Of a DNA stretch of 64,000 bases, positions 40,037 through 40,313 are shown one piece after another. The stretch covers positions 2,957,488 to 3,021,487 of the forward strand of contig NZ_CP070608.1 of NCBI RefSeq assembly GCF_017068455.1, written 5' to 3'. The position numbers were made by a program, and so were the translations under genes. Below the pieces are notes generated by a model. It was not told the origin of the DNA, searched no databases, and saw nothing but the letters and a program-made list of their open reading frames with translations. This DNA is from Fulvivirga lutea. Its GTDB lineage: Bacteria; Bacteroidota; Bacteroidia; Cytophagales; Cyclobacteriaceae. The stretch's first letter is position 1; every line of letters starts with the position of its first letter.

Positions 40037-40053
40037 CGCTCCATTTAACAAAT

Positions 40054-40190
40054 GGCGAGGTTCCCGATAGCTATCGGGACAGATGGTCGTTGACGAAGCA
40101 AAGCTTGTCACGATGCTGAACGTAACGTCAGCATTAGAGTGCAGGATTCATATCCGCCAGTTGGCGGACGGGGGTAAAAGTTCTTCCGTA
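40054..40190 (+). pseudogene. Decayed tRNA-Met copy interrupted by palindromic insertions
   Basis: Blocks of the functional tRNA at 40210 recur in order: GGCGAGGT (40054-40061), CAGATGGT (40080-40087), TAGAGTGCAGGATTCATA (40135-40152, one mismatch) and GGGGGT (40170-40175), then similarity fades. Between the blocks lie palindromes: TCCCGATAGCTATCGGGA (40062-40079), whose centre AGCT equals the missing tRNA bases; GACGAAGCAAAGCTTGTC (40092-40109); ATGCTGA..TCAGCAT (40113-40134); and TCCGCCAGTTGGCGGA (40153-40168). The copy cannot fold as a normal tRNA. The gene-free stretch 39944-40412 holds this relic, the intact tRNA and its terminator. Confidence 0.8.
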
Positions 40191-40209
40191 AAATAGTTAG
40201 AGAAATTAT

Positions 40210-40283
40210 GGCGAGGTAGCTCAGATGGTTAGAGCGCAGGATTCATAACCCTGAGGTCGGGGGTTCAATTCCCCCTCTCGCTA
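40210..40283 (+). tRNA. tRNA-Met (anticodon CAT)
   Basis: The 74-nt cloverleaf has acceptor GGCGAGG with TCTCGCT (two G-U pairs), D arm GCTC/GAGC, anticodon loop TTCATAA, and T arm GGGGG-TTCAATT-CCCCC, with discriminator A. The CCA end is not encoded. The first pair G1-U72 and the lack of three G-C pairs at the foot of the anticodon stem argue against the initiator tRNA. The anticodon stem has an A31-C39 mismatch. It reads AUG internally. A strong terminator follows. Confidence 0.96.
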
Positions 40284-40285
40284 CT

Positions 40286-40313
40286 AAAAGCAGCTTAACA
40301 GCTGCTTTTTTTT
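40286..40313 (+). terminator. Terminator of tRNA-Met
   Basis: AAAGCAGCT pairs with AGCTGCTTT around TAAC, followed by a T-run. Confidence 0.93.

Follow-up and report, generated by a model that had tools for sequence, protein, structure and literature searches.

The window, a stretch of 64,000 nucleotides from the 4.14-Mb genome of Fulvivirga lutea (G000), contains a dead copy of a tRNA-Met gene (40052-40175, plus strand) that is truncated in the T arm, carries palindromes in the D stem, D loop and anticodon arm, and adjoins an intact copy of the gene (Table 1). ARAGORN called a single tRNA, the intact Met(cat) gene, and a whole-genome search found it to be the sole full tRNA-Met of its kind in the genome, with a next best match of 76%. 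The earlier note, made from the letters alone, had described blocks of the functional tRNA kept in order, with palindromes filling the D stem, the D loop (two hairpins) and the anticodon stem. Every block was found in its place, with one mismatch in TAGAGTGCAGGATTCATA, and all of the palindromes are real; the third, however, was found to replace tRNA nt 38-47 (the 3' half of the anticodon arm and the variable loop) and not the stem alone. The suggestion that the AGCT at the centre of the D-stem palindrome represents retained tRNA bases fared less well, as AGCT is the commonest centre of relic hairpins elsewhere (17/57), which makes it weak evidence, and other relics have other centres. In what follows, R5 and R3 denote partial tRNA copies upstream and downstream of an intact tRNA gene, which is denoted F.

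Table 1. The tRNA-Met relic of the window and the features that follow it.
Feature	Position	Strand	Basis or comparison
5' end block of the relic (R5), ATGGCGAGGT	40052..40061	+	Identical to 40208-40217
Palindrome TCCCGATAGCTATCGGGA, 18 nt, replacing D-stem AGCT	40062..40079	+	Palindrome also present in the syntenic G010 relic
D-loop block CAGATGGT	40080..40087	+	Identical to 40222-40229
Double-hairpin insert in the D loop, 47 nt	40088..40134	+	Identical at 40/48 aligned positions to an insert that a tRNA-Val relic of G002 (L191) has at this spot
TAGAGTGCAGGATTCATA: 3' strand of the D stem, 5' strand of the anticodon stem, anticodon	40135..40152	+	One mismatch to the functional gene
Anticodon-arm hairpin TCCGCCAGTTGGCGGA, 16 nt, replacing tRNA nt 38-47 (ACCCTGAGGT)	40153..40168	+	Same junction in other genera and phyla
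T-arm start CGGGGGT; relic truncated beyond it	40169..40175	+	Sequence comparison with the functional copy
Spacer between relic and intact tRNA, 34 nt	40176..40209	+	Arrangement shared with several other loci
Intact tRNA-Met(cat), F	40210..40284	+	ARAGORN; whole-genome search
Terminator-like hairpin, then a T run, downstream of the tRNA	40286..40313	+	Inverted repeat 40286-40295/40300-40309, then Ts
Possible remnant of a GIY-YIG gene start: ATG, MLTVNVLNS, stop after 13 codons	40321..40362	+	Resemblance to the nuclease start

The last feature in Table 1 consists of nine codons, MLTVNVLNS, that resemble the start of the tRNA-linked nucleases described below (MFTVYVLYS), and it begins 36 nt past the tRNA, as compared to a median of 50.5 in relatives (64 tRNA-gene pairs). 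That this stretch is the remnant of a nuclease gene is suggestive only, because its score was also reached by 25 of 4000 Markov resamplings and by 8 of 1066 120-mers from the window. A PF01541 profile search of 15 genomes of the genus gave no match at this site, and a search of plasmids found no match to the window region.

Relics and GIY-YIG genes in the genus

Among these 15 genomes the distribution at tRNA-Met is patchy. An element or relic is present at this one site in four (G010, G013, G001 and G000), ten have a single intact tRNA-Met with neither an adjoining relic nor a PF01541 match in the profile search, and in G003 a contig ends there. A small PF01541 gene directly adjoins tRNA copies in G010, G013 and G001. 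The relic of G010 is syntenic with that of the window and contains the same two kinds of palindrome, in the D arm and the anticodon arm; its GIY-YIG gene sits ~131 kb away, at 3' copies of the tRNA. Partial 3' copies of tRNA-Met were found in both G001 and G010, some with an extra hairpin in the T arm. On contig 2 of G010 (G010:C2, ~76160-207500), tRNA-Met is apparently split by ~131 kb, with 5' pieces at ~76160 and ~76310 and the 3' half at ~207520. In relic-free G005, an intact tRNA-Met occupies the position of the window's relic and is identical to the intact gene of G000 throughout the region of the replaced segment. In the sister genome G013, both D-arm palindromes are missing and the anticodon-arm hairpin is slightly degenerate, so the palindromes of the window's relic were probably inserted in separate events, as the earlier note had supposed.

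Two further observations concern tRNA-Met itself. Relic-free G006 has a partial 3' copy ~17 kb downstream (L056, G006:C8 ~169514) that keeps the native segment and has no hairpin; the PF01541 search gave no GIY-YIG match nearby, and the copy is possibly the edge of an island. A group I intron (RF00028) lies in tRNA-Met directly after CATA in G010 (L038, 1062-1323) and G001 (L041, 191-450), a site that is the left border of the segment replaced by the relic hairpin. While group I introns of tRNA anticodon loops thus share this border with the hairpin in two genomes of the genus, the relics differ in containing a short hairpin and no intron.

The profile search gave 93 PF01541 matches in the genus, long proteins included, and 45 GIY-YIG places were checked. 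Thirteen lie within 600 bp of a tRNA or tmRNA called by ARAGORN, and at 10 of these that RNA was matched a second time, in one case weakly and on the opposite strand (L107). GIY-YIG genes were found downstream of tmRNA genes in four genomes (L118, L107, L117, L122), and no same-strand partial tmRNA copy lies beside the gene in these four loci. Other GIY-YIG genes are embedded in interspersed GTCAT..ATGAC hairpin repeats (L098, L106, L112, L116, L126, L127, L129, L135), some of which have a hairpin nested in the loop; a REP-like pairing of these repeats with the gene is possible.

A tRNA gene, a GIY-YIG gene and partial tRNA copies across phyla

The same arrangement recurs across phyla. One genome per species (84,980 species) was scanned with patterns from two Met-linked GIY-YIG proteins, which yielded 112 nuclease relatives; the 80 loci kept include Bacteroidota, Balneolaceae, Rhodothermia and Cloacimonadota. 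A tRNA was called by ARAGORN within 600 bp in 62 of the 80 loci and was absent from that range in 18. The nearest tRNA was Met in 58, Asn in 2, Val in 1 and Asp in 1, and in all except the Asp locus it lay upstream and on the same strand. Both initiator and elongator tRNA-Met are used. Where a tRNA lies within 450 bp upstream, a partial copy of it was found downstream of the GIY-YIG gene in 52 of 61 loci, as compared to 0 of 61 in shuffled DNA, and was lacking in 9. Wherever loci were read, the order is tRNA and terminator, GIY-YIG gene, downstream copy, with the gene in neither an intron nor an intein. By eye, a terminator-like hairpin often stands between F and the GIY-YIG gene. Both flanking copies are seen at some loci only, and tandem arrays of R5 units lie next to F in three (L271, L275, L293). 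A strict 23-nt pattern of the Met junction occurs in 3 of 390 genomes of the order, G000 among them, and is too strict for counting elements. Carriage of the nuclease by plasmids or phages was considered and rejected, as a collection of 72,556 plasmid records gave 3 matches and one of 50,697 phage records gave 2, all below 60% identity.

The upstream and downstream copies are truncated on opposite sides. The best downstream copies reach the 3' end of the tRNA in 43/49 cases and the 5' end in 2/49, and upstream copies reach the 5' end in 21/25 and the 3' end in 0/25, as would be expected had a tRNA gene been split at nt 38-47 and a unit that brings a complete tRNA along been copied into the gap. 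The segment is left unreplaced in F itself in 60 of 61 loci, the exception being a tRNA-Val.

In the downstream copies, CATA-ACCC..AGGT-C has mostly become CATA-TCCGYY-NNNN-RRCGGA-C. When segments were located by the flanking tRNA letters alone, 50 of 60 loci gave a downstream segment and 10 gave none. The native segment is 10 nt long in 50/50, and the segment of the copy is 16 nt long in 44, 15 nt in 3, and 14, 18 and 25 nt in one each. At least five of the six outer positions are complementary in 47/50, the remaining three being non-hairpin by that rule. Across the 44 16-mers, 257 of 264 cells pair, as compared to a mean of 227.4 and a maximum of 240 over 1000 shuffles that ignore the relatedness of the loci; because related loci enter more than once, the hairpin counts are not independent events. 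The TCCG..CGGA frame is kept in 39/44, and the inner pairs vary together (CC/GG 30, TC/GA 6, CT/AG 3, TT/AA 3, GC/GC 2). Judged from these segments, the anticodon-arm hairpin is a conserved and covarying part of the element rather than a random insertion. Two Cloacimonadota loci have the same type of nuclease with tRNA-Asn and a hairpin at the identical tRNA position; at the tRNA-Val locus L309, a different segment is replaced.

These values agree with a first count, biased in that CATA, CTTA or CGTA had to be followed by a hairpin with at least five of six pairs; because its segments were chosen by pairing, it is unfit to test complementarity. It gave 123 raw hits, of which a letter filter kept 112 in 65/80 loci and dropped 11, two of them genuine in appearance (L281 downstream, L322 upstream). 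A 16-nt hairpin was present in 57 loci, where 337 of 342 cells of these pairing-selected segments are paired, with inner pairs CC/GG 39, TC/GA 7, CT/AG 6 and TT/AA 5. Also among first-count hits, the nearest hairpin upstream matches the first one downstream of the same locus exactly in only 12/22, and additional TC..GA hairpins were seen before the anticodon arm in 15 of 54 upstream relics and after it in 4 of 58 downstream relics. No such hairpin was found in the 68 tRNAs that ARAGORN called at the same loci. The perfection of the hairpins could stem from arm-to-arm conversion rather than from selection.

The PF01541 profile scored above its cut-off in 3/3 tRNA-linked proteins, and Y5, Y16, G18, R26, H30 and E63, which we take to be catalytic-type residues of the GIY-YIG domain, are invariant in 10/10. 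The closest solved relatives by sequence profile are UPF0213 (E 1.7e-12) and SLX1 (E 6e-7), with a weaker match to I-TevI (E 0.008), and these matches would fit a structure-specific nuclease as well. To our knowledge, no GIY-YIG proteins of the UPF0213 or SLX1 kind are parts of tRNA-linked elements. In a tree of 26 chosen proteins, the tRNA- and tmRNA-linked nucleases split from those linked to GTCAT..ATGAC repeats (support 100/98), and six repeat-embedded proteins form one clade. The nucleases also group by RNA gene, with supported clades for Ala (98/96), Asn (98/92) and tmRNA (100/98; three of the four tmRNA-linked proteins are in the tree). The Met clade (91/96) is an open fork that also holds Asn and Val loci.

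Palindromes in other RNA genes

The window's relic contains one exact copy each of TCCCGANNNNNNTCGGGA and TCCGCCANNTGGCGGA, and there are five exact copies of each in G000, as compared to 0 and 0 for the reversed controls. When two mismatches are allowed, the counts become 13 versus 10 and 38 versus 26 in the controls, and because this excess is small only near-exact copies are informative. In the 15 genomes of the genus together, TCCCGANNNNNNTCGGGA occurs 71 times versus 11 for its reversed control, and the form TCCGCC-NNNN-GGCGGA 20 times versus 0. The 17 TCCCGA sites of G010 fall in tRNA relics (10), tmRNA (1), RNase P RNA (1) and terminator-like hairpins (2), with three remaining; relics and terminators were assigned by eye. 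In partial tRNA copies, TCCCGAxNNNNxTCGGGA and TCCGCC-NNNN-GGCGGA replace the anticodon arm or parts of arms, and palindrome-bearing copies of tRNA-Ala, Asn, Pro, Gly, His, Asp, Val and initiator Met were recognized by eye. At the Ala, Asn and Pro loci, a GIY-YIG gene is flanked by the intact tRNA on one side and the downstream copy on the other, and the anticodon arm is wholly or partly replaced. Outside tRNA copies, the genus has the same palindrome forms in functional RNase P RNA, as well as in tmRNA and terminator-like hairpins. The proposal of repeated targeting to RNA hairpin regions stands in so far as palindromes recur precisely in the arms of tRNA copies in many species, while the growth of a new stem from AGCT is not supported.

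Several other occurrences were recorded. The apices of peripheral stems in RNase P RNA carry these palindrome forms in several of the 15 genomes (L205-L219), and the RNase P RNA of G009 has three exact palindromes and a fourth, imperfect one. A family of ~300-bp repeats, recognized by eye (L057, L059 and L061 of G000, L181 of G005), holds TCCCGATAGCTATCGGGA at one fixed internal place; one copy has a mismatch in the palindrome, the G005 version reads TCCCGATAGTTATCGGGA, and L057, L059 and L181 gave no Rfam match at gathering score. Further copies of the D-loop double hairpin in G000 were sought and rejected, as 3 sites lie within 2-3 mismatches of an 18-nt piece versus 2 in the control. A second GIY-YIG gene of G000 (L128, G000:C1:1938600-1940300) adjoins a fragment, a tRNA by eye, with the same palindrome in its T arm; by eye, this fragment adjoins a truncated tRNA, whose break lies close to what looks like a tyrosine recombinase gene.

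The excess of TCCCGANNNNNNTCGGGA over its control, and the concentration of the G010 sites in tRNA relics and, beyond these, in other structured RNAs and terminator-like hairpins, favor a reading in which the D-arm palindrome and the D-loop double hairpin of the window belong to a separate family of mobile palindromes, which would have a preference for RNA stem-loops and only happen to occur alongside the GIY-YIG element. We regard this as possible but doubtful, since the TC..GA form also appears in the D and T arms of relics elsewhere, where some copies, by eye, are like the local anticodon-arm hairpin.

Origin of the relic

The best explanation of the window's relic, to which we assign a probability of roughly 0.55, is that it is the R5 flank of a decayed homing-like element that has spread between bacteria with a putative nuclease. 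A complete unit would run R5, spacer, F, terminator, GIY-YIG gene and R3, in which R5 and R3 would be the 5' and 3' parts of the host's former tRNA-Met gene, both with a hairpin in place of nt 38-47, and F would be the complete tRNA gene that keeps the cell alive. The putative nuclease would break a naive tRNA gene near nt 38-47, and repair would copy the element in between the two tRNA halves. The hairpin would then be the altered target in the copied flanks and would keep the displaced halves dead. Recombination between R5 and R3 would remove the element and leave only a dead tRNA-Met; the element would be hard to lose because its flanks are direct repeats that both hold the hairpin. Both the homing-like spread and the maintenance by lethal loss are steps that we infer from sequence comparison. 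The extra D-arm and T-arm hairpins of relics may be later events of the same kind, and the window locus looks like an element that has lost its nuclease gene and R3 and whose R5 has gained two further palindromic inserts. Membership in such a GIY-YIG nuclease/tRNA element is the likely driver that the earlier note overlooked.

The intact segment of F speaks against simple homing. Because F retains nt 38-47, a simple cutter of that segment should also cut F, and either cleavage would need a context that is absent from F or the nuclease would act elsewhere, for example on palindrome cruciforms in the manner of SLX1. Nor does a cut at nt 38-47 explain the extra hairpins of the upstream and downstream relics. 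The different segment replaced at L309, the 18 of 80 loci that lack a tRNA inside 600 bp, the 9 of 61 that lack a downstream copy and the merely suggestive gene remnant of the window likewise count against the homing-like reading. In an alternative that we consider unlikely, though the best of the remaining ones, an SLX1-like GIY-YIG protein would cut cruciforms or branched DNA formed by the palindromes of R5 and R3, so that the hairpins would be its substrate and would be kept because they drive tandem amplification and conversion at the locus. It would account for the sparing of the hairpin-less F, and it agrees with the SLX1 and UPF0213 profile matches, with the covariation of the hairpins and with the tandem R5 arrays next to F. 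However, it leaves unexplained both the entry into a naive tRNA gene and the retention of the 5' end in R5 and of the 3' end in R3, and what the protein has in common with UPF0213 and SLX1 is a catalytic domain.

Stem covariation, the constant order and same-strand layout, and the replacement of arms by stems rather than by random sequence would also suit a role in RNA, with R5 and R3 transcripts folding as tRNA-like strings of hairpins that process or regulate the F/GIY-YIG transcript and with selection on the RNA keeping the stems. We consider this improbable given that R5 and R3 are truncated at opposite sides and that a terminator-like hairpin often separates F from the gene. Ordinary decay of a duplicated tRNA gene, hit at random by repeat-type palindromes of the forms also seen in non-tRNA repeats and terminator-like hairpins, is very improbable, as exact copies are rare (five and five in G000) yet the same 10-nt segment is replaced in 47/50 downstream copies across phyla, the G006 copy without a nearby GIY-YIG match keeps its native segment, and the shuffle test, the shared junction, the geometry and the anchors-only hairpin test all contradict it.

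Returning to the homing-like element, no published account of it was found among the matches listed from the open-access literature, as judged by title or start of abstract. The closest known system is SegB of phages T4/T6, a free-standing GIY-YIG homing endonuclease adjoining tRNA genes that is reported to cleave within tRNA-containing DNA, to promote tandem amplification of tRNA segments through recombination and to lack isotype preference (PMC13096335). Both systems place a small free-standing GIY-YIG nuclease beside tRNA genes, and the R5 arrays suggest a similar amplification; unlike the phage-borne SegB, the present genes are chromosomal and their clades tend to particular RNA genes, and hairpin-marked dead tRNA halves are a feature of the present element that the excerpts of PMC13096335 do not mention for SegB.

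Genomic islands that integrate at tRNA genes likewise insert at the gene, bring a copy that restores its function and leave partial tRNA copies at their edges. Here, in contrast, the restored tRNA is complete and internal and the edge copies bear hairpins, and no integrase was seen on reading the element units (spacer, tRNA, terminator, GIY-YIG gene). Short palindromes in genes are also known from Rickettsia palindromic elements, longer palindromic repeats found in protein genes, and from REP/RAYT systems, in which dispersed copies of one palindrome sequence are paired with a nuclease-like gene, the Y1 transposase. The present hairpins differ in being 14-18 nt long, at one tRNA position, variable in sequence with complementarity kept, and paired with a GIY-YIG nuclease; the TCCG form is fixed at a single tRNA position with varying stems, and the TCCCGA form is dispersed. 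Identity with Rickettsia palindromic elements was rejected, as the hairpins measure 14-18 nt and lie, among the sites read, mostly in RNA genes or their copies.

More tentatively, at a chance that we put below even, these loci may represent an undescribed class of element that holds an essential single-copy tRNA gene hostage, supplying its own tRNA copy and a GIY-YIG nuclease while the host's halves are marked dead by hairpins and recombinational loss is lethal. Different nuclease clades would act in this way on Met, Ala, Asn or further RNA genes, and small palindromes in tRNA arms and other RNA stem-loops would be seeded by this process. Since nuclease clade, neighboring tRNA and 16-nt hairpin vary together in nature, a candidate target can be named from sequence. 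An odd pseudogene in this way becomes a diagnostic mark for an element that occurs in several phyla. If the reading is correct, it would point to a new way for a selfish gene to resist loss and to a traceable source of the small palindromes in tRNA copies and RNA stems.
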